DNA from: Marinobacterium aestuarii
GTDB lineage: Bacteria > Pseudomonadota > Gammaproteobacteria > Pseudomonadales > Balneatricaceae
Direction: 5' to 3'
Assembly (NCBI RefSeq): GCF_001651805.1
Contig: NZ_CP015839.1
Coordinates: 3,286,001-3,350,000, forward strand
DNA length: 64,000 nt
Shown here: in pieces, positions 6,183 through 43,655 of the stretch
How positions within the stretch are numbered: the first letter of the stretch is position 1
Layout of the letters: every line of letters begins with the position of its first letter
The notes under the pieces: model-generated
Told to the model about the DNA's origin: nothing
Database searches by the model: none
The model's input: the letters and a program-made list of their open reading frames with translations, nothing else
Translations under genes and position numbers: made by a program

Positions 6183-6221
6183 AGGTACTCCCACAGGTAA
6201 TCAAGCTGATAGGTGCCAGCC

Positions 6222-6686
6222 TTAAAAAGGCCAGTCCCGCAGCGGAATGAGCAGCAGCTGGGTGAACACCAGCCAGACCAGCGATGTGACAATCAGCGTC
6301 ACCAGGGCCACTTCAGCGGGCTTGCGATGGCCCAGGCCCCAACTCAGCGCCGGGATAAACAGCAGCGTTGCCACCCAGTAGCCGACGAACCAGAAACCGG
6401 CCACATAGAGACAGATCGCCAGCAGGCCTGCGACCATGCGCCCCGGCCGGACTCCAGCTGATATGCCGGCCGCGCCCTCAGACGGGCCTGCGCGCCGCAA
6501 CAGGGCCGAAAGCATCAGCCCCAACCCGCAGAGCATCGCCAGCACCAGCAGTAACCAGGGGTACCAGGCCGGATTCATGGCGATGGAGGTCTCCATGGCA
6601 TCCGTTTTCGGCAAGCCCGTGACGTAGAGCAGTGCCGCTATTGGAAGCACCCCTGCGCCTATCCAGAGATCCGTTAATTTCTTCAT
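6222..6686 (-). CDS. tctB: Tripartite tricarboxylate transporter small permease (TctB family)
   Basis: A 154-residue hydrophobic protein with four predicted membrane segments, the normal size and topology for TctB. It lies 10 bp downstream of tctC and 39 bp upstream of tctA, the usual gene order tctC-tctB-tctA. TctB sequences are poorly conserved, so position between the other two subunits is the main evidence. A long GC-rich linker (about residues 62-80) separates helices 2 and 3. Confidence 0.87.
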   Translation of the reverse strand: MKKLTDLWIGAGVLPIAALLYVTGLPKTDAMETSIAMNPAWYPWLLLVLAMLCGLGLMLSALLRRAGPSEGAAGISAGVRPGRMVAGLLAICLYVAGFWFVGYWVATLLFIPALSWGLGHRKPAEVALVTLIVTSLVWLVFTQLLLIPLRDWPF

Positions 6687-6696
6687 GGACCCGCCC

Positions 6697-7659
6697 CTAC
6701 TGAGCCAGACCCAGCTTATCGATCAGCTTGGCGTTGGTTGCCGACACTTTGCTCACGTAGGCTTGAAAGGCCTCAGCGTCACGGTAGGCGACATCGGTTC
6801 CCAGCGATTTGAGCTGCACCCGGTAGGCGTCGCTGCCGGCCACTGTATGACAGGCCTCTGCCAGACGCGCCTTGTGTTCGTCCGCCAGCCCCTTGGGTGC
6901 AATCAGGCCACCCCAGAGAGCGGCATTGAGCGCATAGCCCTGCTCGGTGGCGGTCGCAAGTGCCGGCAGCCGATCGATACGGCTATCGGCAAAGGCGGCC
7001 ACCGCGGGCAGCTCCTTGTCCGACACCACGGTGCCGGTCGCCATGTAGAGATCGACATGCCCGCCCATCAGCGCCGTCACGCCCGGACCGTCGCCGGTAA
7101 AGGGCACATGGCGCAGCTGCAGATCGAGCACATCCAGTAACTGCTCCATCGCCAGATGCGGCAAAGTGCCAGGTCCGGGTGAACCATAGGACAGCGCACC
7201 TGGATTCTCACGGGCATAATCGACCACTTCGCCCAAGGTTTTGAACGGTGAATCCGGCTTGGTTGCCAGCACCATAGGGCTGCTGAACAACTGGCAGATG
7301 TAGTCAAACGAATCCGCATCATAGGGTAACCGGCGCAGGTTCGGCTGATTCACCAGCGGCGCCGCCGGTACCACCGCAACGGTGTAGCCATCGGGCCTGG
7401 ACTTGGCAATCTGCGCCATCCCTATGGTGCCGGCACCGCCCTGCTTGTTGGTCACCACTACATTGGTCCCCAGCGCCTCGCCCAGCTGCAAGGCGGTGGC
7501 CCGGCCCAGGGTGTCGGTCACACCGCCCGCCGGAAAGGGGATGACCATGGTCATCGGTCTGGAAGGATAGGTCTCGGCCTGCACCAGGGTCGCGGTGGCA
7601 CCCAGCACCCATCCGGCGATCAGCGTGCCTAGGGTCCGTTTGAAGGTTGTATTGATCAT
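6697..7659 (-). CDS. tctC: Periplasmic TctC/Bug-type solute-binding protein
   Basis: A 320-residue binding protein with a signal peptide (positively charged start, hydrophobic core, VQA before residue 29). The mature start ETYPSRPMTMVIPFPAGG is typical of Bug/TctC receptors, as is NKQGGAGTIG further on. Its job is to capture a carboxylate in the periplasm and pass it to TctAB. The single receptor gene next to the permease genes suggests a dedicated rather than promiscuous importer. The ligand cannot be read from the sequence. Confidence 0.93.
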   Translation of the reverse strand: MINTTFKRTLGTLIAGWVLGATATLVQAETYPSRPMTMVIPFPAGGVTDTLGRATALQLGEALGTNVVVTNKQGGAGTIGMAQIAKSRPDGYTVAVVPAAPLVNQPNLRRLPYDADSFDYICQLFSSPMVLATKPDSPFKTLGEVVDYARENPGALSYGSPGPGTLPHLAMEQLLDVLDLQLRHVPFTGDGPGVTALMGGHVDLYMATGTVVSDKELPAVAAFADSRIDRLPALATATEQGYALNAALWGGLIAPKGLADEHKARLAEACHTVAGSDAYRVQLKSLGTDVAYRDAEAFQAYVSKVSATNAKLIDKLGLAQ

Positions 7660-10289: not shown

Positions 10290-11783
10290 CTAAAGCCGGA
10301 TCCAGATGGTTTTAAGCTCGGTGTATTTCTCCAGCGCATGCAGCGACTTGTCGCGGCCATTACCCGAGCCCTTGACGCCGCCAAAGGCCACGCTCTGATC
10401 ACCATCGCCCCAGCCATTGACCCACACCATGCCGCTCTGAATTTTGCGGCTGACGCGGTGGGCGCGCTTCAGGTTCGAGGTCCAGACACAGGCACCCAGA
10501 CCATAAACGCTGTCGTTGGCCAGGCGCACGGCCTCCTCCTCGGTGTCAAACTCGCACAGTGCCAGTACCGGGCCAAAGATCTCCTCGCGCACAAAGGTCA
10601 TGCCATTGTGCGCATCGCTGATCAGCGTGGGCTGGGCATAAAAGCCCTCGCCGGCGCGGTGCTCGCGTACGCCGCCCAGCACCAGGGTGCCACCCTCGTC
10701 CAGCCCCGAGGCGATATAACGGTTTACGCTCTCCAGCTGGGCGGCATCCACCAGCGGTCCCATGGTGGTTGCCGGGTCCAGCGGGTCACCCGGCCGGTAG
10801 GCCTTGGCGGCCCCCTGCAGGGCTGCCAGGAATTCGTCCCGGATGCCTTTTTGAACATAAAGACGTGATGCTGCGATACAGACCTCGCCCTGGTTGGAAT
10901 AAATGGCCGCCGCGGCATTGGCGGCGGCTTCTGCTATGTCGTCGCAGTCATCGAAGATGATATTGGGCGACTTGCCACCGGCCTCCAGCCAGACGCGCTT
11001 GAGGTTGGACTGACCGGCGTACTCCATCAGCATGCCCGCCACCCGGGTGGAACCGGTGAACACCAGCACATCCACATCCATATGCAACGCCAGCGCCTTG
11101 CCAGCGGTATGGCCGTAGCCCGGCAGTACGTTAAGCACGCCATCGGGCAGGCCCGCGTCCTGGGCCAGCTGGGCCAGACGCAGTACGCTCAGGGGGGATT
11201 TCTCCGACGGCTTGAGTACCACCGAATTGCCCGCCGCCAGTGCCGGCGCCAGCTTCCAGGTCGCCATCATCAGCGGATAGTTCCAGGGCACTATGGCACC
11301 GACGACACCGATGGGCTCGCGGCTCATCAGCGCCAGGGCATCATTGCCGGTGGGCGCAATTTCGCCATAAATCTTGTCGACGGCCTCTGCGGTCCAGCGC
11401 CAGCAACCGATGCTGGAGGGCAGATCCAGACCCGTGGATTCAGCGATCGACTTGCCCATATCCAGGGTATCGAGCAACGCCAGTTCATCCTGATGCTGCT
11501 CAATCAGATCGGCGAGCTTGAGCAGCACCTGCTTGCGCTGCTCCGGCGAGCGCTCGGACCAGTCGCCGCGGGCAAAGGCGGCACGGGCACTGTGCACCGC
11601 CACATCGACATCGGCGCTGTCACAGGCGGCAACCTCGGCCAGAATCTGCTCAGTGGCAGGATTAACAGTGGCGAAAGTCTCACCGCTGATGGCCGGGACA
11701 AAACGTCCGTCGATCCAGGCCTGATTGCAGAACGCGAGATCCGCGGCCTGCGCCTTCCAGTCGTCATAGCTCTTGTTCGCCAT
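10290..11783 (-). CDS. puuC: PuuC-like gamma-glutamyl-gamma-aminobutyraldehyde / aldehyde dehydrogenase
   Basis: A 497-residue NAD(P)-dependent aldehyde dehydrogenase. Key residues are N168 (PWNYP), general base E267 (LEAGGKS) and nucleophile C302 (SNQGEVCIAA). The C-terminus SGNGRDKSLHALEKYTELK matches E. coli PuuC closely, as does the N-terminal pattern around YDDWKAQAADLA. It would oxidise aminobutyraldehyde-type products of putrescine degradation. The ATG at 11783 was chosen over the longer open frame to 11933 because homology begins there. It is transcribed alone, with its own terminator and palindromic operator candidates upstream (11850-11916). No other puu gene is adjacent, so the substrate may be free gamma-aminobutyraldehyde from the aminotransferase at 778. 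Confidence 0.88.
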   Translation of the reverse strand: MANKSYDDWKAQAADLAFCNQAWIDGRFVPAISGETFATVNPATEQILAEVAACDSADVDVAVHSARAAFARGDWSERSPEQRKQVLLKLADLIEQHQDELALLDTLDMGKSIAESTGLDLPSSIGCWRWTAEAVDKIYGEIAPTGNDALALMSREPIGVVGAIVPWNYPLMMATWKLAPALAAGNSVVLKPSEKSPLSVLRLAQLAQDAGLPDGVLNVLPGYGHTAGKALALHMDVDVLVFTGSTRVAGMLMEYAGQSNLKRVWLEAGGKSPNIIFDDCDDIAEAAANAAAAIYSNQGEVCIAASRLYVQKGIRDEFLAALQGAAKAYRPGDPLDPATTMGPLVDAAQLESVNRYIASGLDEGGTLVLGGVREHRAGEGFYAQPTLISDAHNGMTFVREEIFGPVLALCEFDTEEEAVRLANDSVYGLGACVWTSNLKRAHRVSRKIQSGMVWVNGWGDGDQSVAFGGVKGSGNGRDKSLHALEKYTELKTIWIRL

Positions 11784-11849
11784 TGTCTTATCCGTCGCTG
11801 TTCTGGCTAGTATTGCGTCCAGTCTACGCGGGACACCGCCACGGCTGAA

Positions 11850-11868
11850 TATCCCATGGGGGGTATAT
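11850..11868. promoter_or_regulatory. Operator candidate upstream of puuC-like gene, site 1
   Basis: Imperfect palindrome TATCCC-ATGGGG-GGTATAT, about 67 bp upstream of the puuC-like start. It shares the 9-mer GGGGGTATA with the region upstream of the LuxR gene (2247-2255, opposite strand). Confidence 0.45.
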
Positions 11869-11900
11869 CCCGCTGCACTGACCCAGGCCCTGGAGCGCCC

Positions 11901-11916
11901 TACCCCCACAGGGGTA
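11901..11916. promoter_or_regulatory. Operator candidate upstream of puuC-like gene, site 2
   Basis: Perfect palindrome TACCCC-CACA-GGGGTA. It lies about 118 bp upstream of the puuC-like start and 30 bp upstream of the small rightward ORF at 11946. Confidence 0.5.
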
Positions 11917-11945
11917 TGGCGCCCTTCCTGCACGACGGAGATACT

Positions 11946-12110
11946 GTGTCCACATCTGACAACGACAGGGCTCGACAGATTCTGGCTGCACGCCTGAGAC
12001 TGACGGACCCTTGGCTCATCCGCGTGTCAGCTGTGCTCATTACCCTGTTTGTAGCATTCCTTGTAAGCTTCTGGCCGCCATTTGGCGGTCATTTTTTTAT
12101 GCCGTATTGA
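11946..12110 (+). CDS. Possible 54-residue single-pass membrane protein
   Basis: A GTG-initiated frame with GGAG 5 nt upstream. It encodes a polar N-terminus with several arginines, followed by one hydrophobic segment (VSAVLITLFVAFLVSFW, about residues 28-44) and an aromatic tail. I recognise no family. Against it: a terminator-like hairpin with a T-run (12073-12098) lies inside its last codons, so a full-length mRNA would have to read through. The alternative is that this stretch is the body of a short untranslated RNA ending at that terminator. Confidence 0.3.
   Translation: MSTSDNDRARQILAARLRLTDPWLIRVSAVLITLFVAFLVSFWPPFGGHFFMPY
12073..12098 (+). terminator. Rightward Rho-independent terminator
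   Basis: Stem GGCCGCC/GGCGGTC (12073-12079 and 12084-12090) with a 4-nt loop and seven T residues at 12092-12098. No rightward gene other than the doubtful 54-residue ORF precedes it. Confidence 0.6.
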
Positions 12111-12135
12111 CTCTGAGTTCGGCGCGCGGTGCTTC

Positions 12136-12177
12136 GTGATTGGTGATTGGTGATTGGTGATTGGTGATTGGTGATTG
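12136..12177. repeat. Heptamer tandem repeat, six copies of GTGATTG
   Basis: Six perfect head-to-tail 7-bp units in the intergenic region. A related array (CGTGATT units) occurs at 58095-58117, and a longer one of different sequence (GCCGTAA) at 19293-19416. Confidence 0.9.
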
Positions 12178-12205
12178 GGCCAGGATGTCGGCCTGCGGTC
12201 GCGGC

Positions 12206-12223
12206 TATCCCCCAGTGGGTATA
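12206..12223. promoter_or_regulatory. Operator candidate upstream of the M20 amidohydrolase
   Basis: TATCCC-CCAGT-GGGTATA, related to the sites at 11850 and 11901. It lies about 94 bp upstream of the amidohydrolase start, so that gene may share a regulator with the puuC-like gene. Confidence 0.42.
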
Positions 12224-12316
12224 TCGACGCCGCCCCCTTGTTCATTACATTGCAGACCAGCAACCAGGCGTTAGCGTCATGCATCCATCCCGCAACAACA
12301 ACTCAGGAGGCCGTCG

Positions 12317-13555
12317 ATGCCCGAACCTACAATTAATGCCCAGCGACTCTGGGAAAGCCTGATGCAAATGGGCGAGATCGGTGCCACCGACGCCGGCGGC
12401 TGCTGCCGCCTTGCCCTCACTGAACTCGACCGCCAGGGCCGCGATCTGTTCGTGCACTGGTGCAGGGAAGCCGGCTGCGACATTCATGTCGATCGCATCG
12501 GCAACATCTATGCACGGCGTCCCGGTACCGACCCCGAAGCCCTGCCCATCAGCACCGGCAGCCACCTGGACACCCAGCCCACCGGCGGCAAGTTCGATGG
12601 CATCTACGGTTGCCTGGCCGGGCTCGAGGTCATCCGCAGCCTGAACGATCACAACATTCAGACCCGCCGCCCGGTGGAAGTGGTGATCTGGACCAACGAG
12701 GAAGGCTCGCGCTTCGCCCCGGCCATGGTGGCCTCGGGCGTCTACAGCGGAAAGTTCAGCCTCGACTACGCCCTCAACCAGACCGACGCCCAGGGCATTC
12801 GCCTGGGGGATGCCCTCAAGGCCATCGGCTACGACGGCGAGCTGGAGGTGGGCGCACGCAGGTTCGCCAAATTCTTCGAGCTGCACATCGAACAGGGGCC
12901 TGTGCTGGAACGGGAAAACGATCAAATCGGCGTGGTCACAGGCGTGCTCGGCATGCGCTGGTACGATGTCAGCGTCAAGGGTGTTTCGGCCCACGCCGGC
13001 CCCACCCCCATGAGCTACCGCCGCGATGCCCTGGGTGCGACGGCGAAAATGATCAGTGCACTGATCGATATGGCGGCCGAGCGGGTCGAGGAAGACGGCC
13101 GCTGCACCATCGGCGAGCTCAGCATTCCCAAAGGCTCACGCAACGTGATCCCAGGGGACCTGAACTTTACTCTGGATCTGCGTAATGCCAGCCTCGAGGG
13201 CCTGGAGGCCATGGAGCAGCAGGCCCGCCGCCTGATTGACAGCATCGCCACCCAGGCTCAGGTGGAAGTCACCCTTGAGTGCATCTGGGACTCGCCGCCT
13301 ACGGTGTTTGATGCCGACTGCATCAATGCGGTGGAGCACGCGGTCGCCGACAGTGGCTGCCGCTACCGCCGCATGACCAGCGGCGCCGGCCACGATGCCG
13401 TCAATATCAGCACAGTGGCACCCACCTCGATGATTTTCGTCCCCTCAGTGGGCGGCATCAGCCACAACGAGAGCGAATACTCGACCCCGGAGCAGATCGC
13501 CAGCGGCGCCCGCATCCTGTTCGAGGTCATGAAGAACGAAGCCCAGAGCGCCTGA
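12317..13555 (+). CDS. M20-family Zn-dependent amidohydrolase (N-carbamoyl-amino-acid hydrolase / allantoate amidohydrolase type)
   Basis: A 412-residue binuclear metallohydrolase. Metal ligands are visible: H83 and D85 in GSHLDTQ, D94 in GGKFDGIYG, the EE pair at 128-129 (TNEEGSRF), H190 in ELHIEQGPVLE, and a C-terminal histidine in GGISHNESEYS. The family cleaves N-carbamoyl groups from linear amides such as N-carbamoyl-L-amino acids, beta-ureidopropionate or allantoate. AGGAGG lies well placed before the ATG. It is likely followed by its own terminator (13604-13634). Because agmatine deiminase makes N-carbamoylputrescine, that compound is a tempting substrate, but no N-carbamoylputrescine amidase activity is known to me in this family; a ureide or carbamoyl amino acid is more usual. 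Confidence 0.9.
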   Translation: MPEPTINAQRLWESLMQMGEIGATDAGGCCRLALTELDRQGRDLFVHWCREAGCDIHVDRIGNIYARRPGTDPEALPISTGSHLDTQPTGGKFDGIYGCLAGLEVIRSLNDHNIQTRRPVEVVIWTNEEGSRFAPAMVASGVYSGKFSLDYALNQTDAQGIRLGDALKAIGYDGELEVGARRFAKFFELHIEQGPVLERENDQIGVVTGVLGMRWYDVSVKGVSAHAGPTPMSYRRDALGATAKMISALIDMAAERVEEDGRCTIGELSIPKGSRNVIPGDLNFTLDLRNASLEGLEAMEQQARRLIDSIATQAQVEVTLECIWDSPPTVFDADCINAVEHAVADSGCRYRRMTSGAGHDAVNISTVAPTSMIFVPSVGGISHNESEYSTPEQIASGARILFEVMKNEAQSA

Positions 13556-13587
13556 TAGCGGCGCCCCTGGATTAGAGTATGCTTCAA

Positions 13588-13611
13588 CCAGAGCCAGAGC
13601 CAGAGCCAGAG
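13588..13611. repeat. Hexamer repeat, four copies of CCAGAG
   Basis: Four perfect 6-bp units. The last unit is part of the left stem of the terminator that follows. Confidence 0.85.
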
Positions 13612-13634
13612 CCCGAAAGGGACTCTGGCTTTTT
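13604..13634 (+). terminator. Terminator of the M20 amidohydrolase gene
   Basis: AGAGC...CCCGAAAGGG...ACTCTGGCT followed by six T residues. The stem is built partly from the CCAGAG repeat, which gives several alternative left arms. Confidence 0.75.
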
Positions 13635-13654
13635 TATGCCTGCAGCTTTATTTA

Positions 13655-13669
13655 TGGAAATCATTTCCA
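13655..13669. promoter_or_regulatory. IclR-box-like palindrome upstream of tauE-type gene
   Basis: TGGAAATCATTTCCA, a perfect palindrome (7-bp arms, 1 central base) 88 bp before the permease start. As I remember it, the published E. coli IclR consensus is TGGAAATNATTTCCA, which this matches at every fixed position. Which regulator uses it here is unknown. Confidence 0.5.
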
Positions 13670-13756
13670 TTTTTAAGCGGCAGCACAATTGCGCTGCCAT
13701 GGCGCGACGGTTAGGCTATCGACCGCCCCACTGCTGCCGCACAGGATGCCCTGGTC

Positions 13757-14497
13757 ATGACGCCCCTCGATTATCTGCTGCTGATTCTGGCCGGCTACTT
13801 TGCCGGCGTGCTCAACACCATCGCCGGTGGCGGCAGTTTTCTCACCTTTCCGGCCCTGGTGTACGCCGGCATCCCGCCCATTGCCGCCAATGCCACCAGC
13901 GCTGTGGCCGTATTGCCGGGCTATCTGGGCGGCACCCTGGGTTTCAGGCGCGAACTCAAAACCCTGGATCGGGCCCTGCTGATACGTCTCAGCCTGATCG
14001 GCCTGGCAGGCGGCATCAGCGGCGCCCTGCTGCTGCTGATCACCCCGGCGGCGGTGTTTGATATAGCCGTACCCTTTTTGCTGCTCGGTGCCACCTTGCT
14101 GTTTGCCTTCGGTAATCGTCTGATGTCCCTGCTGCGCCGTTCAGGCAGGCCGCTGCCCATGGCACCGGGACTGCTGGTGGTGGCCATTTATGGCGGCTAC
14201 TTTAACGGCGGTCTTGGCATCATGCTGCTGGCACAGTTCGCCGCCGCCGGCATGCAGGAGCTCAACCTGATGAACGGCCTGAAGAACCTGCTGTCCTTCG
14301 TACTGTCGTCCATCTCGGTGGTCGCCTTCGCCGTTGCCGGCATCGTGGAATGGCCGCAAGCGCTGATCATGATGCTGGCGGCGACCCTGGGCGGGTACAG
14401 CGGTGCCGGTATAGCCCGCGCCCTGCCGGTGCGGGTGGTACGGGGCATCGTCATAGGCGTGGGCCTGGTGATGACGCTGGTATTTTTGCTGCGCTAA
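13757..14497 (+). CDS. TauE/SafE-family inner-membrane permease
   Basis: A 246-residue, very hydrophobic protein with about eight membrane segments. The N-terminal AGYFAGVLNTIAGGGSFLTFPAL is the family signature, and the internal YGGYFNGGLGIMLLAQF is the second half-repeat. Family members are proposed exporters or importers of sulfite, sulfoacetate or other small organic anions. It is a single gene between the amidohydrolase terminator and a convergent oxidoreductase. Substrate is unknown. Confidence 0.9.
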   Translation: MTPLDYLLLILAGYFAGVLNTIAGGGSFLTFPALVYAGIPPIAANATSAVAVLPGYLGGTLGFRRELKTLDRALLIRLSLIGLAGGISGALLLLITPAAVFDIAVPFLLLGATLLFAFGNRLMSLLRRSGRPLPMAPGLLVVAIYGGYFNGGLGIMLLAQFAAAGMQELNLMNGLKNLLSFVLSSISVVAFAVAGIVEWPQALIMMLAATLGGYSGAGIARALPVRVVRGIVIGVGLVMTLVFLLR

Positions 14498-14508
14498 AGG
14501 ATCATCGG

Positions 14509-14534
14509 CAGCCTGGCAGCACGCAGCCAGGCTG
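14509..14534. other. Hairpin between convergent genes
   Basis: Perfect arms CAGCCTGGC (14509-14517) and GCCAGGCTG (14526-14534) between the 3' ends of the permease and oxidoreductase genes. There is no T-run, so terminator strength is doubtful. Confidence 0.5.
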
Positions 14535-14536
14535 GC

Positions 14537-15709
14537 TCAGAAATTCACCCAGCGGGCGCCGTTATCGGCCGACTCCACGCAACACTCCAGCAGCCGAACA
14601 CCCTCAACGCCGGCCGCGATATCGGGATACCAGAGGGATTCCAGCGTCGCCTGATCGTCGCAATCCGCCGCCGCCATGGCCAGCCCGAAGCGATGGTACA
14701 GGTTGGCCCAGGACTCGAAGAAGCCCTCGGCATGACCACCACCGATACGGTTGGTGGCGATGCCCGGCACCTCGTTGTACAGATAGCCCATACCCCGATC
14801 CAGCAGTTGCGCGGGCTGCCCCTGAACCTCGTAGCGCAGCTGGTTGGGGTGTTCATCCCACCATTCGATACTGGCTTTTTCACCCACCACGCGGATCTTC
14901 TGCTGATGCATGGACCCGGCATTAACGGCGCTGGCCCAGAGTGTGCCGACAGCGCCGTTTTTGAACTGCAGCATGACATGGGCGTTATCTTCCAGTGGCG
15001 CGCGACTGTGCACGAAGCTCTGGCGCATGCAGCACAGCCGCTCCACTTCACAGCCGGTCAGCATGCCGGCCAGAAACCAGGTGTGGGTGCCCAGATCCCC
15101 CAGTACGAAGCTGGGGCCAGACACCGCCGGGTTCATGCGCCACTGGGCTCCGGGGCTGTGCTTTTCAATCTCGTCACTGTGAAACCCGTGGGCGAACTGC
15201 ATGTTGATCACGCGAATGTCCCCCAGGTCGCCACGCCTGATCATTTCCCTGGCCTGGTGCAGCATCGGAAAACCCGCATAGCCATACATCACGCCAAAGA
15301 CCCTTTTTGCCGCCTGCGCCCGTCGCTGCAGATCCCGCGCCTCGTCGGCGCTAAAGGTCACCGGTTTTTCACAGATCACATGCAGCCCGGCCTCCAGTGC
15401 CGCCTTGCTGATGGCGTAGTGCGTGGCGTTGGGCGTGGCGATGGACACCGCCTGAATGCCATCGAGGCGGGCCGCCTCAAGGCGAAACATGGACAGATAA
15501 TCGGCATAAGCGCGCGTCGGATCCAGCCCCAGTTTTGTACCAAAATCGCGGCACCGTGCGGGATCTATGTCGAAGGCCCCTGCCACCAGCTGAAACAGGC
15601 CATCACGCTGCGCACCGGCCCGATGGGCATGACCGATCTCGCTGCCACGCCCGCCACCGACCATGGCCCAGCGAATGGGTGACTCAAAACGCATCTCTTC
15701 ATTGAACAT
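14537..15709 (-). CDS. Gfo/Idh/MocA-family NAD(P)-dependent oxidoreductase
   Basis: A 390-residue sugar or cyclitol dehydrogenase. The nucleotide-binding loop is GGGRGSEIG (18-26), and the conserved catalytic-region motif EKP is at 114-116. The C-terminal two thirds form the substrate-binding beta-sheet domain typical of the family. It is divergent from a LacI-type regulator gene, which suggests a small sugar-inducible unit. It is only distantly like the two other Gfo/Idh/MocA proteins in the window (24970 and 32807). Substrate not identifiable. Confidence 0.9.
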   Translation of the reverse strand: MFNEEMRFESPIRWAMVGGGRGSEIGHAHRAGAQRDGLFQLVAGAFDIDPARCRDFGTKLGLDPTRAYADYLSMFRLEAARLDGIQAVSIATPNATHYAISKAALEAGLHVICEKPVTFSADEARDLQRRAQAAKRVFGVMYGYAGFPMLHQAREMIRRGDLGDIRVINMQFAHGFHSDEIEKHSPGAQWRMNPAVSGPSFVLGDLGTHTWFLAGMLTGCEVERLCCMRQSFVHSRAPLEDNAHVMLQFKNGAVGTLWASAVNAGSMHQQKIRVVGEKASIEWWDEHPNQLRYEVQGQPAQLLDRGMGYLYNEVPGIATNRIGGGHAEGFFESWANLYHRFGLAMAAADCDDQATLESLWYPDIAAGVEGVRLLECCVESADNGARWVNF

Positions 15710-35375: not shown

Positions 35376-36161
35376 TCAAAAGGGATAATCGGCGTATCCC
35401 AGCTGCTGCGAAATAACCCGGGCAGCACTGTGCAACATGGCAACATATTCAGCCTGCTTCGATTCGTCATAACGCATCATCGGCCACGAAATACTCAGCC
35501 CCGCGACCACAGTGCCAAAATGATCGAACACAGGCACCGCGATGCAAAGCAGCCCCTCTTCCATTTCCTGGCCGTCCTCGGCATAGCCCCGTTCGCGCAC
35601 CTGCGCCAGCACCGGTATCAGCTGATCGACGGACTCCAGCGTATTGGCGGTGAATTTCCTGAAGTCGACAGCGGCCAGAATATCCCGCACCTCGCGCTCG
35701 TCCAGCCAGGCCAGCAACACCTTGCCAATGGCGGTGCTGTACAAGGGATTGCGGCGCCCTATACGCGAATGCATTCGCAGGCTATAGGGCGAATCGATCT
35801 TGTGGATATAAATGATGCTGTCTTCTTCGAAGGCGCCCAGGTGCAGCGTCTCACGCGTCAGCGTCGACAACTCCCGCATCTGCACGTCAGCAATACGGAT
35901 CAGGTCGACATGCTGCAACGCCTTGGACCCCAGCTCAAACAGCTTCATGGTGAGTGCATACTTGTCGTTCTCACCCTCCTGCTTGACGTAGCCAAGGGTC
36001 TTCATTGTTTGCAAAAAGCGGTAGACGGTACTTTTGGACATCAGCACCCGTTGCGACAGCTCGGTCACACCGATCGCCTGCTCCTCGCCCAGCACCTGCA
36101 AAATGCCGAACACCTTAAGCACCGACGAAACCGAATCCGGAGTTTTGTCCAGAGTAGCCAT
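35376..36161 (-). CDS. kdgR: KdgR-type IclR-family repressor of hexuronate/KDG catabolism
   Basis: A 261-residue IclR-family repressor strongly resembling enterobacterial KdgR, e.g. SSVLKVFGILQVLGEE, LSQRVLMSKSTVYRFLQTMK, DSPYSLRMHSRIGRRNPLYS and the C-terminus LGYADYPF. It would release its operators when KDG accumulates. The ATG at 36161 has GAGG 7 nt upstream; an in-frame GTG at 36173 is less likely. Only kduD from the pathway is present here, so other targets must lie elsewhere. Confidence 0.92.
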   Translation of the reverse strand: MATLDKTPDSVSSVLKVFGILQVLGEEQAIGVTELSQRVLMSKSTVYRFLQTMKTLGYVKQEGENDKYALTMKLFELGSKALQHVDLIRIADVQMRELSTLTRETLHLGAFEEDSIIYIHKIDSPYSLRMHSRIGRRNPLYSTAIGKVLLAWLDEREVRDILAAVDFRKFTANTLESVDQLIPVLAQVRERGYAEDGQEMEEGLLCIAVPVFDHFGTVVAGLSISWPMMRYDESKQAEYVAMLHSAARVISQQLGYADYPF

Positions 36162-36170
36162 CAACAACCT

Positions 36171-36201
36171 CACGCTGTTTTAATTAAATCGGAACAGCGT
36201 G
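36171..36201. promoter_or_regulatory. 31-bp inverted repeat at the kdgR promoter
   Basis: Perfect 9-bp arms CACGCTGTT (36171-36179) and AACAGCGTG (36193-36201), separated by 13 bp of TTAATTAAA-type DNA, starting 10 bp upstream of the kdgR start. Candidate autoregulatory site or leader hairpin. Confidence 0.5.
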
Positions 36202-36344
36202 CCATTGTACGAGGCAATACATGGGAGGCGCAATCACCTGCACCTCCTTAAACCTGGACGCGATGCCCCCCCGAAAACGACCTGCCTCTGGTATACCGCC
36301 GCTCCAGCCGGGGCCCCGGGTCGCAGCAATCAAGAGCGCGACGC

Positions 36345-37871
36345 TCAGGCCCCTCGGGCTACTGTATTATCGAGTTCCTGCATTCTTTTCTTGAGCTGGC
36401 GCCGGCGATATCCCATCCAGATAGCACCCAGGATCAGCAGGACATTGACGACCACCAGGGTCGCTGCCACCGGACGGTCAAGGAATATCCAGAACCCTTC
36501 GCGCGATATAAGCAGCGACCGGCGCAGGCTATTCTCCAGCAGCGGCCCGAGGATGGCACCGATTACCAGTGGCGCCAGCGGATAGTTGCCCAGGCGCAGC
36601 AGGATGCCAAGCATGCCGAATCCAAGCATGACCCACAGGTCAAACACCGACGCCTGCAGCGCAAAGGTACCTATGGCGCAGAGCAACAACACGACCGGGA
36701 TAAGGTAGCTTTTCTTCAGCCGCAGCACCCAGACGAAAACAGGGGTCGCCAGAATCCCGACGAACAGCAAGGCGACATTTGAGAACAGATAAACCAGGAA
36801 AACACCGCCGACTATTTCGGGCTGTTGCTCAAACATTTGCGGCCCCGGATAAAAGCCGAGAATCAACAGGGCGCCGATCAGCACCGCTGAGCAGGCGTCG
36901 CCTGGCACACCCAGCGCGAGCGAGGGCACCAGCGAGCCCCCCACAGTGGCGTTATTGGCACTCTCGGTCGCCACCACCCCGCCCTCGGCTCCCTTGCCAT
37001 AGCCCTCTTCAGGTTTGGCCATCGCCGATGCGGCGGCATAGGCTGCGAAGGACGAGATGGTACCACCGGCCCCCGGCAAGGCGCCGAAGAAGCCACCAAT
37101 CGCCGACGAGCGGATCAGGTTAACCCAGTGTTTTAGTGTGAGGAAAAAGGTGCGAAAGCTCGGGCGCACCGCCCCCACAGTCGGACGATCATTGAGTCCC
37201 CCGGCTGCCACCTGAAAGGCCATTTCCGATATTGCAAAGACACCCACGACAATCGCCACTATATGAAAGCCATTGAGCATATCGTAGGAACCGAAGGTGA
37301 AGCGGTAGCCCGTCGAGAATTCATCGGTACCAATGGTCGCGATCAGCAGCCCCATGGCGCCGACAATCAGCCCCTTGAGCAGTGAGCCTTCAGACACCAC
37401 CGCTATGGCTATCAGCCCGGTCAGCGCGAGCATCGTGTACTCCGGCGGCGCAAATCGCGAGGCGAAAGACGCCAGCAGTGGTGAGAAAAAAATCAGCACT
37501 ACGCCGCCAAAGAGCCCACCCAGGGCTGATGCCGATATCGCTATTCCGGTTGCATCGGCAGCACGGCCATTTTGCGCCATCGGGTAGCCGTCCAGCAGGG
37601 TTGCCGCGGCTAGCGGTGTGCCGGGAATACGCAGCAGGATAGCCGAGATCGAACCGCCACAGGAGCCACCGACAGCGATGGCAATCAGAAAACCCATGGC
37701 CGCCACCGGCGGCAAGGTAATGGCAACCGGTAACATCAGCACTATCCCCATCAGGGGGCCCAGGCCCGGCAAGGCGCCGACGATGAGACCAAATACAACG
37801 CCCAACACCGTCAGGCCTAGCGTAAGCGGCGTCAACATGAGGTCGAGGCCAGACATCAGAGCTTGAATCAT
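36345..37871 (-). CDS. tctA: Tripartite tricarboxylate transporter large permease (TctA family), second system
   Basis: A 508-residue membrane protein with the TctA signatures GALPGLGPLMGIVLMLP, GGSCGGSISAILLRIPGTPLA and LDGYPMAQNGRAADATG. The ATG at 37871 was used; the longer frame starts with TTG and would overlap tctB. It ends the operon sulfatase-tctC-tctB-tctA. It is clearly paralogous to the permease at 4671 but not a recent duplicate. Confidence 0.93.
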   Translation of the reverse strand: MIQALMSGLDLMLTPLTLGLTVLGVVFGLIVGALPGLGPLMGIVLMLPVAITLPPVAAMGFLIAIAVGGSCGGSISAILLRIPGTPLAAATLLDGYPMAQNGRAADATGIAISASALGGLFGGVVLIFFSPLLASFASRFAPPEYTMLALTGLIAIAVVSEGSLLKGLIVGAMGLLIATIGTDEFSTGYRFTFGSYDMLNGFHIVAIVVGVFAISEMAFQVAAGGLNDRPTVGAVRPSFRTFFLTLKHWVNLIRSSAIGGFFGALPGAGGTISSFAAYAAASAMAKPEEGYGKGAEGGVVATESANNATVGGSLVPSLALGVPGDACSAVLIGALLILGFYPGPQMFEQQPEIVGGVFLVYLFSNVALLFVGILATPVFVWVLRLKKSYLIPVVLLLCAIGTFALQASVFDLWVMLGFGMLGILLRLGNYPLAPLVIGAILGPLLENSLRRSLLISREGFWIFLDRPVAATLVVVNVLLILGAIWMGYRRRQLKKRMQELDNTVARGA

Positions 37872-37875
37872 GGTA

Positions 37876-38370
37876 TTACCACGCAATATTCAGATGAAAG
37901 ATGCCGCCCGGCAGCACGATTTTGAGCCAGGCCTCGAAGATCCAGGCCAGGCCAAAAGAAACGCCCAGGGTCGGCAGAATGATCGCGACCGGCCGCCGCA
38001 GACCACAGAGCAACATCACCCCCGCCAGCATCAAGGGTGTCGCAATGTGATAGCCAAGCCAGCCAAGCAGTCCGAGATAGAGCGCAAAGAGTGCGATAAG
38101 AGCTGCGGGGCGAACTAGCGCTGCCCAGCTTGTCGCCTCACTTGCAGCCTTGCGGCCGGCAACAAGAAGTGCCATCTGTATCAACACCAGAACGCCCAGT
38201 ACGATAGCGACCCCTTGCGGATAGGCAGCTCCATTATTATAAGGGCCGCCCGAGGCGATCCCCTGGGCGGTCATGTTTGTCGCGATCTGCTGGAATACCA
38301 GCAGAATCAAACCCACGAACAGAGCGACGTTGCACCACTGTGCAAGTCTTGCAGTCGGTCGAATGGCCAT
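37876..38370 (-). CDS. tctB: Tripartite tricarboxylate transporter small permease (TctB family), second system
   Basis: A 164-residue protein with four hydrophobic segments, 4 bp before tctA and 27 bp after tctC. Position and topology identify it as TctB. Like other members it lacks strong sequence motifs. Confidence 0.87.
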   Translation of the reverse strand: MAIRPTARLAQWCNVALFVGLILLVFQQIATNMTAQGIASGGPYNNGAAYPQGVAIVLGVLVLIQMALLVAGRKAASEATSWAALVRPAALIALFALYLGLLGWLGYHIATPLMLAGVMLLCGLRRPVAIILPTLGVSFGLAWIFEAWLKIVLPGGIFHLNIAW

Positions 38371-38397
38371 CTTTATTGTCCTTCGCTAACCATCGGA

Positions 38398-39390
38398 TTA
38401 CTTAAGTTTGGAAAGCTGTTCCTCTTCCCACTTCAGGGCATTGCCCATCTCGCCGAGCTGGTCATGCACCTTAGAAACGATTTCGTCGTACTGATCCCAG
38501 TCCCACTGCAGCGGCACAAAGCCCAGCCGCTTGATCCCCTGCTGCACGTCGTCACGTGCCATTGCCGTGGCCATGGCCTTGCGCAACACTTCCACCCGCT
38601 CCGGCGGCGTATCCGAATGCACCAGCCACCAGTTCCAGCCCATGGGCGCCAAGCCGCTCAAGCCCAGGTCGATGCCCAGATCCGCTATGCTCGGCGCACC
38701 ATCAAAGCTTTGCTTGGCCCCTTCGAGGTCTGACAGGACGAGAATAACCTTGTAGGCGTCCGGCATCTTATGGTATTCGCCGACACCGAGGAATGCGAAA
38801 TCCAGCACGCCTGCGCGCAAATCAGACAGGGCGTCGGTGTCGGTGTTATACGGAATATTCTGCGCGACAGCGCCAAAGCCCTGCAGTGTCTTGGCAATTA
38901 CCATATGGGGCAAATTGTTGCGCGAACCGGATGAGTAACGCAGATCGCCGGGATGCTCCTTGGCATAGGCCATCATCTCCTCGAAGTTGGCCCAGCGGTC
39001 GTTGTCCTTGCGGATGGCGATGGAAAAGGCGTTTGAAAATGCCGAGTGCAAAGGCGTGAAATCCTTGAAGGTCCAGTCCGCGTTGCCCAGCAGCGGCTGC
39101 AGCACCAGTGGCGCCACATAACCATCAATCATTGTGTAGCCGTCGGCCGGGCGGTTCATCGCGGTCAGGAATGCCTTGGTGCCGGCGGCACCCGGGGTTG
39201 AGATGACCGGCATCGCGACACCCAGTTCGTCGGACATGGCCTCTGCCAGTATCTGGCTGATGGACATGGCAGCCCCTGAACTCCAGGGATATACCAGTTC
39301 GATCGTCCGCTCTGGGTACTCGGCTTTGGCCACCAGCGGACAAAGCGTGATGAGTGCCACGGCCGTCGCTTTTTTCAGTGATGTGAACAT
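38398..39390 (-). CDS. tctC: Periplasmic TctC-type solute-binding protein, second system
   Basis: A 330-residue receptor with a signal peptide (cleavage expected after AKA, residue 23) and the mature start EYPERTIELVYPWSSG. The usual PFPAGG is replaced by PWSSGAAMS, so its ligand pocket may differ from standard tricarboxylate receptors. It lies between a sulfatase gene (206 bp upstream) and tctB. This suggests that the imported compound carries a sulfate ester that the cytoplasmic sulfatase removes. Confidence 0.9.
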   Translation of the reverse strand: MFTSLKKATAVALITLCPLVAKAEYPERTIELVYPWSSGAAMSISQILAEAMSDELGVAMPVISTPGAAGTKAFLTAMNRPADGYTMIDGYVAPLVLQPLLGNADWTFKDFTPLHSAFSNAFSIAIRKDNDRWANFEEMMAYAKEHPGDLRYSSGSRNNLPHMVIAKTLQGFGAVAQNIPYNTDTDALSDLRAGVLDFAFLGVGEYHKMPDAYKVILVLSDLEGAKQSFDGAPSIADLGIDLGLSGLAPMGWNWWLVHSDTPPERVEVLRKAMATAMARDDVQQGIKRLGFVPLQWDWDQYDEIVSKVHDQLGEMGNALKWEEEQLSKLK

Positions 39391-39596
39391 CGGGTCTACT
39401 CCTGTTGTTTTTATCGATTTTGCTTTACGGGTGAATCGGTGGATTTACCTAGCTGTAGGGTCCAGCGACCCCGCCAGCTCCGTGATCTTGCGAGCACTGA
39501 GCCTTGGTTCCTGTTTCTGTCGAGGCTGAGCTCAATGCCGTCACTTCGGTCGATCTGGGCCAGAGCAGCCTCGGTGCAATGCCCGGCCCCGTCTTG

Positions 39597-41135
39597 TTAG
39601 GTTATTTTGGCGCCCCCGGGGGCTGTCAGATCAAAGCGGCGGTAAAGTTCAGCCGGAGCATCATGTTCGGCAAGAATTTTCACCAGGCTGCGTGTCAGCC
39701 GCTGGGTAATGGCGTTGTCGCCGTAATCGGGATTCAATTGCTGAGGGTCCTCCCGTACGTCGTAGAGGCGCGTACCCAAGTCGCCAAAGGCTGTGACGTC
39801 CGGATCCGGTGGACGCGCGGCGTTGCTGCGGGCGCGAATCTTGAGCAAGCGTACATCCTTGGTGAAATCAAAGGGCGCCACCAGCTCCATGTCGTCTAGC
39901 TCTTCCAGTGTGAAGGGGCTGTTCATATGGGTCGGCATCAGCGTGTATTCGAACAGGTTCTCGCTGGTGGCGATATTGTCCGGATAGCGATAATAGGTGT
40001 AGCGACCATCCGTGACACAAATAGGGCCACCGAACATGCCCAGGATAATGGCATCCCGCAGCTGCTGGTCTTTTTTCAGTAGCGGTAGAACAGATTTGGC
40101 CCGCGTTTCCGGCGGCGGCTCAATACCGAATGCATCCAGCAGGGTCGGCATCAGATCCGGCGTCTGGGTCAAGCCTTGGCGCCTCGTGCCTGCCTGCTCA
40201 CGAAACTGCGGATGGGCGATAATCATTGGAATATGAGCGATTTCCTCGTAGTAAGGCTGCCTGTTCTTGCCCCACCAGTCATGCTCAGACAGCAGGAATC
40301 CGTGGTCGGTCGACATCACCAGCATGGTGTCTTCCCACAGGTTGTGCTCATCGAAGTAATCCAGCAAACGGCCGAAATACTCGTCGCACATACTCACCAG
40401 TGCGGCATAGTTTGACTGAATTTCAGCGATTTCTTGCGGTGTGTTGTTTACCTTTTCGTAAATCGGCCAGTTCAACACCTTGCCCTGATAGCCCGTGCTG
40501 TATTGCTGGCGAAAACGCTCCGGCGCATGGAAGGGTTCGTGGGGGTCGAAGCACTCGAGCCAGAGCAGCCAGTCATCTGCTTCGCGGTTGGTATCGAGGA
40601 ACTCAAACGCGGAGGCAAAGCAGCGGGCCGTTGGAAAATCGCTCTCCTCTTTCATCCATTCGCGGTTAATGGCATGCTGCATACGTTTCTTTGATGTCGG
40701 TGGGTAATGGCGGGTATCGTAGGTTTCCTTGAAGCGCTCCAGCGGCGGTTGCACCATTGCTTTCCAGGGGTCGTTTTCCTGCCCACGAATAAAGTCCCAG
40801 GTGTCGAAAGCCTGCGGATAACGCCAGCCGCCTTCTTCAAAGTAATGCTGATGGTCGGTAACCAGGTGGCTGTAAATACCCTTGTCTTTCAACATCTGTA
40901 CAAAAGAGTTATCGAAAGGTTCCAGCGGCCCCCAGCTGCGATGCATGAAGTTGAGGCGCCCTGAGTGGATATCTCGCCGTGCAGGCATACAGGGGAGACT
41001 GCCGACATAATGCGTATCAAAGGTCACACCCTTTTTAGAAAAGCGGTCAAAATTCGGCGTCTTAATGCCGTGACTGCCATAACATCCAAGCGCCTTGCGC
41101 ACCAGCGAATCAAATAGAACAAATACGACTTTCAT
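39597..41135 (-). CDS. Type I sulfatase of the alkaline-phosphatase superfamily, cytoplasmic
   Basis: A 512-residue sulfatase. The formylglycine motif C-x-P-x-R is present as C49-M-P-A-R53 (SLPCMPARRDIHSGR); C49 would be oxidised by a formylglycine-generating enzyme. The first metal site is around D9 (FVLFDSL) and the second in MSTDHGFLLSEH. No signal peptide is seen, so it should act inside the cell, which fits uptake of an intact sulfate ester by the TctCBA genes that follow. Divergent LysR gene 115 bp away. No maturase gene is adjacent. Phosphonate monoester hydrolases share the fold and are an alternative. Confidence 0.88.
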   Translation of the reverse strand: MKVVFVLFDSLVRKALGCYGSHGIKTPNFDRFSKKGVTFDTHYVGSLPCMPARRDIHSGRLNFMHRSWGPLEPFDNSFVQMLKDKGIYSHLVTDHQHYFEEGGWRYPQAFDTWDFIRGQENDPWKAMVQPPLERFKETYDTRHYPPTSKKRMQHAINREWMKEESDFPTARCFASAFEFLDTNREADDWLLWLECFDPHEPFHAPERFRQQYSTGYQGKVLNWPIYEKVNNTPQEIAEIQSNYAALVSMCDEYFGRLLDYFDEHNLWEDTMLVMSTDHGFLLSEHDWWGKNRQPYYEEIAHIPMIIAHPQFREQAGTRRQGLTQTPDLMPTLLDAFGIEPPPETRAKSVLPLLKKDQQLRDAIILGMFGGPICVTDGRYTYYRYPDNIATSENLFEYTLMPTHMNSPFTLEELDDMELVAPFDFTKDVRLLKIRARSNAARPPDPDVTAFGDLGTRLYDVREDPQQLNPDYGDNAITQRLTRSLVKILAEHDAPAELYRRFDLTAPGGAKIT

Positions 41136-41201
41136 AGGATTTACTCATGTCGAATAGATGGTTCAACGTAGCCTTGAGACTGATGCTAGACGCAATGAGA
41201 C

Positions 41202-41219
41202 ATAGAATATAATATCTAT
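41202..41219. promoter_or_regulatory. LysR-type binding-site candidate in the sulfatase/lysR divergent region
   Basis: ATAGAATATAATATCTAT, a dyad with ATAGA/TCTAT ends, lies 32 bp before lysR and 67 bp before the sulfatase gene. AT-rich T-N11-A dyads are usual LysR targets. Confidence 0.4.
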
Positions 41220-41250
41220 TTAGCCAGAATCGATTCCATCAGGTTATGCC

Positions 41251-42162
41251 GTGAACAAATTTCTGCATCAATTCCGGGTCGTCGCGGAGCAAAAGAACCT
41301 GACCGCAGCCAGCCAGCTGCTGCACCTGAGCCAGCCGGCTTTGACCAAGAACATCAAGAAAGTGGAGGAAGAGTTCGGTGTACCCCTGTTCGAGCGACTC
41401 CCCAGAGGCATGCTTCTGACACCTTTTGGCGAGGCGCTGCTGCACCGGGTCAAACGGATGGAAATGGAGTATCGCTACGCTCATGAGGAGCTTTCAGCGC
41501 TGCAGAGCGGTGCCACCGCAAGTCTGAATATCGGATCAGGCCCGGTATGGGCACTGAACTACCTGCCAGATATTTTGACGCAGATGTACCAGCGCTTTCC
41601 CAGCCTCTCGGTCAGGCTGGAATCCGGCTCCATGTCGGTATTGATGCCCAAATTGATTGCCGGGGAACTGGATCTGGCACTGGGAACACAGGATATCGAC
41701 GAACGACTGACCGACGAGCTCGAATACATCCACATGCTTGATGTGGATTTGATTGTGGTTGCCAGGAGTAACCACCCGCTGGCACACCAAGCAACGGTTA
41801 GCGCAGAAGAGCTGTGCCGATATCGCTGGGTACTCTTTATGCAGTCGCAGGATCAAATCGGCCAGTACAATCACTTTTTGCGTCAGCATGGGTTGCCGTC
41901 ACTGGACGTCTGCCTGCAGTCCGATTACTGGACCACAGCCCAGGCAATGCTGCACCAGGGTGACTACCTCATGAGTATGCCAAAGCAGCTTTTGCATCAG
42001 GCAACGGATAACGACCTGGTACAAATAGCCTTCGTGCAGAAAATATGGGGATTCTCCAGCGGTATCTGGTATGCACCGGCTGCGCGCAGCCTGCCCGCGG
42101 TGAACGAATTTATAAATTTTATGATCAGGGATGTTCGCGATACGGATTCAGCCACAGGATAA
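41251..42162 (+). CDS. LysR-family transcriptional regulator of the sulfatase/transport operon
   Basis: A 303-residue LysR protein. Winged-helix HTH at residues 1-60 (FRVVAEQKNLTAASQLLHLSQPALTKNIKKVEEE), then the co-inducer-binding domain. The start is a GTG; no in-frame ATG is nearby. Divergent from the sulfatase gene, so probably its activator in response to the sulfated substrate or its product. Confidence 0.9.
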   Translation: MNKFLHQFRVVAEQKNLTAASQLLHLSQPALTKNIKKVEEEFGVPLFERLPRGMLLTPFGEALLHRVKRMEMEYRYAHEELSALQSGATASLNIGSGPVWALNYLPDILTQMYQRFPSLSVRLESGSMSVLMPKLIAGELDLALGTQDIDERLTDELEYIHMLDVDLIVVARSNHPLAHQATVSAEELCRYRWVLFMQSQDQIGQYNHFLRQHGLPSLDVCLQSDYWTTAQAMLHQGDYLMSMPKQLLHQATDNDLVQIAFVQKIWGFSSGIWYAPAARSLPAVNEFINFMIRDVRDTDSATG

Positions 42163-42248
42163 AAACCATGCTCTCCTTCTGCACCACACCAGAGCCCCAG
42201 ATTACAACGGTATAACCTAAAGCTATCGCCTCTTTTTTATCCTCTGTT

Positions 42249-43655
42249 TCATTCTTCTGCTCGCTCCGGGGGGACAGAACTTTCCCCTTCAATGAACTCC
42301 AGCCAGCGAGCGCGATATTCAGCCAGCCCAGCCAGGTTCACTGGACGCTCTACAGCGGCAGGCACTGCAGCGCACGGCCAGTCAGAGCCCGCTATCAACT
42401 GGGCGGCACCCTGAGTAGTGCCGGTACTGTCGTTACTGGCACGCACCCTCTGCTCTGGGCGCAGCGCCTGCAGCACACTCAGGTAGACGGCATTGCGGGC
42501 AAAGCTGCCCTCGACAAAAATATCACCGCCGCTTTGCAGCCGGCTCAGGCAGTAATCCGTCATCAGGGCGCAGTAGAGCGCGGCCAGTGCCGTGCGCTGC
42601 CGGGCACTGAGACTGTCGCTCGGGCCGATCACCCCGCCCTGGCGATGCCGGAACGGGCCACCCTGACTGGAAAAGGACGGCAGCGCAAAGACCCCCGCCT
42701 CCAGTACCCGCTGCAGATCCGTCAGCTCACAGTCGTCGGCATCGCGCAGCAGCTCCCACTCCCGCCCGCCCATAAAGCGGATACAGGGCACCGGATCACC
42801 AAAGGCACTGACATTGGCGAGCATATCGTCCTGCTCACTAATGCCGGTCAGGGGCGCGCCAATCCCCGCCATAAGGGTCCAGGTGCCGGTGGAAATGACC
42901 GTAAAGGGCAGGTCGAGCTGGCGCAGATAGGGCACCAGGGATGCATTACTGTCGTGGATGCCGTTGATCACCTGACAATCCGCTGGCAATCCGAGTTCGC
43001 CGGCCAGCTGCGGCAAAACCGGGCCCAGCACGGCACCGGCCTTTCGCAGCGCGGGAAACAGCCCCTGCCAGCCCATGCGTTCGACCAGCGACGAGTAGCA
43101 CTGCTGTTGCGGCTGCCACAAATCGGTATGACACCCCAGGGATGTCAGCTCGCTGGCCGCAACACCGCTCAGGCGCCAGCCCCAGTACTGCGGGTACATC
43201 AGAATACAGTCGACGCGGGCAAAATCATCGGGCCTGGCATGCGCCAGCCAGAACAGCTGTCGACCCAGATTGAGCCCGCAGCCCAGTGCCGGGCTCAGGG
43301 TCTGTGCGTAGTCCGGGCGCACCTGGTCATACTCGTTATTCGTCTGTTCACACAGATCCGATTCATAATCCAGTACCGGCAGCGCCGCTGTATCGCCGGC
43401 CAGGCAAACCGCCGTGGCACCGTGGGTGGTAAAGCTCAGAAAGCGAATCGCGTAACGCCGAGCCAGGGTGGCAACACCCTGGCAATACCAGTGCCAGATG
43501 CCCTCGATATCCGCCTGCGGATAGGGCTCGGCCAGGATCACCTCATTGCTGCGCTTGAGCGACTCAAGCAGAGCTCCGCTCACGGCATCCAGGGCGCAAA
43601 GTTTGACATTGGTCTTGCCAATATCCAGTACCAGAATAATCGACTGCATCTTCAC
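42249..43655 (-). CDS. rhaK: L-rhamnulose kinase, FGGY family (Rhizobium RhaK type)
   Basis: A 468-residue FGGY-type carbohydrate kinase with the phosphate loop DIGKTNVK (11-18), the sugar-binding GIHDSNASL, and the second phosphate motif ISTGTWTLMAG. It phosphorylates the 1-position of L-rhamnulose. Its start overlaps the stop of the mutarotase gene by 4 bp, so the two are translationally coupled. It is the last gene of rhaRSTPQ-mutarotase-kinase, the order known from Rhizobium leguminosarum. L-fuculose as substrate is less likely given the isomerase at 51772. Confidence 0.88.
   Translation of the reverse strand: MKMQSIILVLDIGKTNVKLCALDAVSGALLESLKRSNEVILAEPYPQADIEGIWHWYCQGVATLARRYAIRFLSFTTHGATAVCLAGDTAALPVLDYESDLCEQTNNEYDQVRPDYAQTLSPALGCGLNLGRQLFWLAHARPDDFARVDCILMYPQYWGWRLSGVAASELTSLGCHTDLWQPQQQCYSSLVERMGWQGLFPALRKAGAVLGPVLPQLAGELGLPADCQVINGIHDSNASLVPYLRQLDLPFTVISTGTWTLMAGIGAPLTGISEQDDMLANVSAFGDPVPCIRFMGGREWELLRDADDCELTDLQRVLEAGVFALPSFSSQGGPFRHRQGGVIGPSDSLSARQRTALAALYCALMTDYCLSRLQSGGDIFVEGSFARNAVYLSVLQALRPEQRVRASNDSTGTTQGAAQLIAGSDWPCAAVPAAVERPVNLAGLAEYRARWLEFIEGESSVPPERAEE

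Follow-up and report, generated by a model that had tools for sequence, protein, structure and literature searches.

What does a sulfatase without an export leader do in a gene run with a tripartite tricarboxylate transporter (TTT)? This question is raised by a cassette within the window, the whole 64,000-nucleotide stretch of DNA that was analysed. Marine and gut environments are rich in sulfated sugars and sugar acids, and in many of the degraders that have been studied well, removal of the sulfate from these compounds takes place outside the cytosol. The original prediction was that a sulfate ester bearing a carboxylate group is imported intact and desulfated inside the cell. Our analysis suggests that the cassette probably does take up a small sulfate ester intact and remove the sulfate in the cytosol; the likeliest ligand is a monosaccharide-sized sulfated sugar acid or sugar. 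At the genome level, import followed by desulfation appears well supported, and the reading builds on gene content, a missing leader, conserved catalytic residues, conserved linkage and the swapping of importers, all of which were observed directly.

The cassette comprises a run of four genes on the minus strand and a divergent regulator. The run begins with a leaderless S1 formylglycine-type sulfatase of 512 aa (39597..41135; PF00884, 119.5 bits against a cut-off of 25), followed by the solute-binding protein TctC (38398..39390; PF03401, 55.9 bits, cut-off 27), the small membrane subunit TctB (37876..38370; PF07331, 51.1 bits, cut-off 29.1) and the large membrane subunit TctA (36345..37886; PF01970, 449 bits, cut-off 28.9), so that all three Tct proteins exceed their Pfam cut-offs and make up a full TTT subunit set. 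The LysR regulator (41251..42162, plus strand), with PF00126 (HTH) and PF03466 (substrate domain), lies beyond a divergent control region of 115 bp (41136..41250, its length taken from the ORF positions); its predicted place beside the run was borne out by ORFs and Pfam domains, and a divergent LysR gene accompanies all 12 operons of this type. The tctC and tctB genes are 27 bp apart, tctB and tctA overlap by 11 bases, and the sulfatase and tctC are separated by 206 bp, compared to 9–32 bp in eight of the ten other operons of that order. A scan of the 206 bp gap revealed no promoter-like or terminator-like site, and co-transcription of the sulfatase with tctCBA in the window genome is therefore likely from the sequence, though the gap is wider than usual. 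In the divergent region, a search for a LysR palindrome found nothing and a promoter scan returned no more than chance. A TTTTACAGAAT-like box is common to the lysR–sulfatase intergenic regions of nine alphaproteobacterial loci (L017-L020, L026, L033, L041, L078 and L079); this candidate LysR site is not kept letter for letter in the window's 115 bp region.

A single scan of genome contigs yielded 80 sulfatase-family loci, mostly from alpha- and betaproteobacteria. The order divergent LysR, sulfatase, TctC, TctB, TctA was found in ten of these (L017-L020, L026, L033, L041, L078, L079 and L081) and, with the window and a sister species, in 12 operons of the window type, which upholds the claim that TctCBA and the sulfatase form one gene unit. 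In the sister genome (G001, region L103), the DNA match starts with tctA and stops with lysR, amid other surroundings than those of the window; the limits of this match set the transferable cassette at 36364..42140. The sulfatase gene was found only in the window's own genome and G001 among 96 sampled relatives, and only in the window's own genome and one other in a 369-genome sample of the class. Among 87 genomes of the family around the genome that carries L018, the window type of TctC was present in seven and the sulfatase in 13. All seven genomes with this TctC type carried the sulfatase on the same contig within ~5 kb (six adjacent, one rearranged), giving a Fisher p of 2.9e-7 that is uncorrected for relatedness, and six of the 13 sulfatase-bearing genomes had no TctC of this type. 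Thus, every occurrence of this TctC type in the family came with the sulfatase, whereas the sulfatase also occurs without this TctC type. Judged from gene arrangement, the coupling of sulfatase and TctCBA is more than chance; no description of this pairing was found in the open-access literature, as far as its text was available.

The predicted C-x-P-x-R formylglycine motif is present as CMPAR at codons 49–53 of the sulfatase (40977..40991, minus strand, read from the sequence; C49 codon 40989-40991), in a protein above the PF00884 cut-off. In an 82-row alignment of the family, C49 and R53 were unchanged in 81 of the 81 covering rows, D94, H95 and H97 were invariant wherever covered (H97 in 81/81), and D9, H97, H199, D277, H278 and K290 were unchanged in 80, 81, 82, 82, 82 and 82 covering rows, respectively. 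Every NCBIfam equivalog fell far below its own cut-off against the window sulfatase, including choline sulfatase (TIGR03417, 89 bits against 433), arylsulfatase (PRK13759, 120 against 481) and PehA (NF045661, 139 against 900). Among the closest known systems is BetC, the choline sulfatase of S. meliloti, also a Cys-type S1 enzyme acting on a small sulfate ester, whose Asp14, Cys54, His104, His201, Asp296, His297 and Lys309 probably correspond to D9, C49, H97, H199, D277, H278 and K290 of the window enzyme (PMC5870055; a pairing by motif that is partly inferred). The two differ in the low TIGR03417 score given above and in that the window cassette has no betaine genes. The window enzyme also has His at position 95, where GKWH-type sulfatases have Lys.

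The absence of a signal peptide from the sulfatase was confirmed. The frame measures 515 codons from stop to stop and 512 from the ATG, with a stop three codons before the ATG, and so leaves no room for a leader. Similarly, in 58 of 81 family sequences ten residues at most could be added before the M1 position, and the others appeared leaderless by eye. The original prediction that this differs from the usual periplasmic sulfatases was overstated: Cys-type bacterial sulfatases are described as typically cytosolic in the available text of PMC3920027, which would make this location ordinary for the type, and seven of the 11 PF00884 matches in the window genome are Cys-type, all seven leaderless by eye.

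Formylglycine in this sulfatase family is supported by FGE and anSME genes in the operons of relatives. In L203, an FGE gene lies between two different-family sulfatases in one run with sugar ABC permeases (10662-14896) and adjoins the family sulfatase; the operons of L206 and L209 include PF03781 proteins, and an anSME gene (TIGR03942, 488 bits, cut-off 349) lies two genes from the family sulfatase in L207. Across seven genomes of the window's genus, G001 alone yielded an FGE with the Cys pair and G003 alone an anSME over the cut-off; in the window genome (G000), neither an FGE with this pair nor an anSME above the cut-off was recognised, so conversion of C49 there would need another route. 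E. coli is said to modify such a cysteine through an unidentified enzyme (PMC6189696, citing Benjdia 2007). Cys-type motifs were counted in 7/11 sulfatase matches of G000, 4/9 of G006, 0/4 of G002, 13 of 20 fetched (from 23 rows) of G005 and eight of 15 fetched (from 17) of G004, counts in which short stretches may hide some. G004, G005 and G006 resemble G000 in having Cys-type sulfatases and no recognised FGE or anSME. The window genome, rich in Cys-type sulfatases, may be a native setting for the proposed third maturation route. Two candidates from L096 and L097 were rejected as sulfatase maturases, as they score 113 and 112 bits against the cut-off of 349 and are two similar radical-SAM genes, each next to a gene that we take to encode a quinohemoprotein amine dehydrogenase subunit. 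A candidate FGE in L012 was likewise rejected, its PF03781 domain having no Cys pair.

TctC begins with an ordinary-looking export signal (by eye), and its nearest solved chain is 4x9t_A (E 4e-20). The claim that it departs from the usual PFPAGG held, and proved general: YPWSSGAAMSISQ (39253..39291, minus strand) stands in place of PFxAGGxxD, and GGxxD is missing from all 12 sulfatase-linked TctC proteins of the window type, which read P-[WF]-x-x-G-x-x-M, one residue shorter, then [SA]-x-SQ. This count is based upon an alignment of 42 TctC sequences, a regular expression having missed five true cases. The canonical loop is retained in most of the orphan TctC proteins found at sulfatase loci of betaproteobacteria. 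In TTT binding proteins, the proximal carboxylate of the ligand is reached from the PFxAGGxxD loop through two bridging waters held there (PMC5812351; see also PMC8556258); the motif is described as almost ubiquitous in TctC but sometimes substituted, and hence not strictly defining (PMC5812351). The altered loop argues against a standard carboxylate at that site, as far as can be read from an alignment. The same source reports that hydroxyl side chains replace these residues in some binding proteins and may keep the same hydrogen bonds, and TctC may therefore still bind a carboxylate. The carboxylate originally assigned to the ligand is not supported as stated, given that the loop that changed is the proximal-carboxylate site and that the relatives L204 and L205 use sugar-type ABC importers.

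The sulfatase family as a whole is found with more than one class of importer. After setting aside six of the 80 loci with no resolved sulfatase ORF and four scoring <300 bits, 70 were classified with HMMs built from clusters of neighbouring genes. An importer gene lay ≤3 genes from the sulfatase in 57 of the 70, which divided into 17 loci with TctA, 29 with TctC and no TctA, seven with sugar ABC systems, four with TRAP systems and 13 with none. Importer genes made up 103/386 genes at distances 1–3 from the sulfatase compared to 24/306 at distances 6–8, a contrast that is an upper estimate because the HMM seeds were themselves drawn from genes up to six away from the sulfatase, and many of the loci are relatives of one another. 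In a family tree of 78 rows, with four truncated rows excluded, the 12 window-type operons sit in a clade of 17 rows (support 98/92). Its remaining members are two sugar-ABC loci, L016 and L075, and a further three loci with TctA: L062, whose TctC loop is canonical, L021, whose loop is divergent, and L063, in which no TctC was found. Two further loci, L204 and L205, whose sulfatases are 60% identical to that of the window, have a divergent LysR, the sulfatase, SBP_bac_1 and two ABC permeases, and no TctCBA; from gene order, this is the window plan with another importer. The family extends to Verrucomicrobiota and Lokiarchaea (L085-L089 and L091), where no importer of the defined classes lies nearby. 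Copies of betaproteobacterial type occur in L035 (labelled Akkermansia) and L046 (labelled Planctomycetota), and these contigs are probably mis-binned on account of that type.

Taken together, loop and family raise a broader idea, about which we are somewhat more doubtful than confident: this TctC subfamily may have swapped the proximal-carboxylate loop for one that holds a sulfate ester, yielding an importer of the TTT class devoted to organosulfates. The DHxHY sulfatases may be a modular import-then-desulfate family that retains the sulfatase while the class of importer (TTT, ABC, TRAP or orphan binding protein) is exchanged. Such a family would offer an ordered list of importers to screen for organosulfate uptake, a step about which little is known, and the loop change a clean test of the role of the most conserved TTT motif.

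The evidence on substrate comes from neighbouring genes in relatives. Four loci with TctA and the sulfatase (L061, L080, L084 and L090) have varying sets of sugar-acid enzymes, among them MR_MLE enolase-superfamily enzymes in all four (assigned by cluster), galactarate-dehydratase-like proteins (TIGR03248 below cut-off in L061, L084 and L090; GD_AH_C in L080) and, in L061, UxuA. A group 22 nickel-pincer isomerase is present in L061 (11533-12849; NF052515, 457 bits, cut-off 400) and, by cluster, in L080 and L090; its position next to the sulfatase amid sugar-acid enzymes is in itself a clue to the substrate of the isomerase. In rhizobial and Geminicoccus relatives, DUF4432 and sugar ABC systems accompany the sulfatase. 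Published predictions assign galactarate/glucarate and galactonate to TTT systems of Halomonas and another mat bacterium (PMC5507952). By analogy, these neighbours and predictions point to sulfated sugar acids or sugars, a clue that is indirect because the window cassette itself holds no sugar-catabolic enzyme.

In the scheme that we infer, in which ligand class, transport, desulfation, regulation and conversion of C49 are all predicted from genomes, exported TctC would capture the sulfate ester, its altered loop probably contacting not the usual proximal carboxylate but a different group, which may be the sulfate. TctAB would carry the ester across the inner membrane, C49 would be oxidised to formylglycine and the leaderless sulfatase would strip the sulfate; the ester or its product is probably the signal by which LysR activates the unit. 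The core of the original prediction, intact import followed by internal desulfation, is backed by conserved synteny, co-occurrence and importer swaps.

A different enzyme activity would change the cargo. Phosphonate monoester hydrolases (PMHs; S1_0) are formylglycine enzymes of the same fold (PMC5066984), and if the window enzyme were a PMH or phosphodiesterase, TctCBA would import a phosphonate or phosphodiester. An AlphaFold2 model of the sulfatase, built with 34 family sequences (pLDDT 87.8), has PMH structures among its best VIA-align matches (2w8s, Z 34.9, rmsd 3.0, 391 aligned; 4uph, Z 34.3), and choline sulfatase, with a D-H metal pair like D277-H278 here, shares 9/11 active-site residues with PMH (PMC5870055). 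The first VIA-align row is, however, ulvan sulfatase 6hhm (Z 35.7, rmsd 3.2, 394 aligned), in effect a tie, and the Foldseek and VIA-align 2 rows listed are all S1 sulfatases or PMHs; as judged with a model as query, the fold matches are many tied S1 enzymes that single out no substrate. What may separate the two is the active site, where H97 falls on the GKWH histidine of sulfatase 5g2v in the alignment, whereas PMH 4upk has Tyr at position 95 and a non-His residue at 97 (alignment confidence middling); H95 and H97 are invariant in the family. Other S1 sulfatases also occur in the same operons. We have taken the enzyme for a sulfatase on this sequence evidence and kept PMH activity as a rival, albeit a decidedly improbable one.

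If the enzyme is a sulfatase, the importer could still serve another compound: TctCBA might take up an unsulfated carboxylate, with the ester arriving otherwise and the two merely co-regulated. This would suit the 206 bp gap in the window and the report that characterised TTT binding proteins bind almost only carboxylates (PMC8556258). We consider it unlikely, as the proximal-carboxylate loop is altered in 12/12 linked TctC proteins, this TctC type turned up only near the sulfatase (7/7) and other importer types occupy the same place. Alternatively, the ester could be used for its sulfur only. PAS and AtsRBC represent the scavenging of aryl and alkyl sulfates, and a unit of that kind would discard the carbon skeleton, in keeping with the lack of a catabolic enzyme in the window cassette and with some Comamonadaceae loci, in which the sulfatase also has NMT1-type (SsuA-like) binding proteins and permeases close by. 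Against this, the arylsulfatase and choline-sulfatase models score far below cut-off, the genes nearby at other loci are those of sugar ABC systems, DUF4432 and sugar-acid dehydratases, and CysB is absent from the best model matches of the LysR protein, so that scavenging also seems distinctly unlikely. The preferred reading, import of a whole sulfated sugar acid or sugar and its desulfation in the cytosol, has partial likenesses among known importers. SlcHFG of Roseovarius and Chromohalobacter is a TTT system for an organosulfur acid, sulfolactate, but its ligand is a sulfonate, its gene order is different and no sulfatase is mentioned in the available text (PMC5812351). Halomonas TctABC, predicted by genomic context to import galactarate/glucarate, is likewise a TTT importer, and differs in being described there without a sulfatase and in having GntR, compared to LysR in the window (PMC5507952).

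The genes for KduD, KdgR, an FGGY kinase and a rhamnose mutarotase that neighbour the cassette were considered as members of the unit and rejected, since the cassette of the sister genome lies elsewhere. There, the interval between KdgR and the kinase is occupied by TRAP-like genes, a PfkB kinase and a GH88-type gene in place of the cassette. The KdgR–FGGY kinase interval of the window (35376-43655) is a swap site, with these three kinds of gene standing where the window has the cassette in the relatives L104, L105 and L107. The window also contains a second TctCBA-like set at 4671-7659 (TctA and TctC tested, TctB by position), which has a canonical TctC loop and adjoins an acyl-CoA dehydrogenase and an IclR gene.
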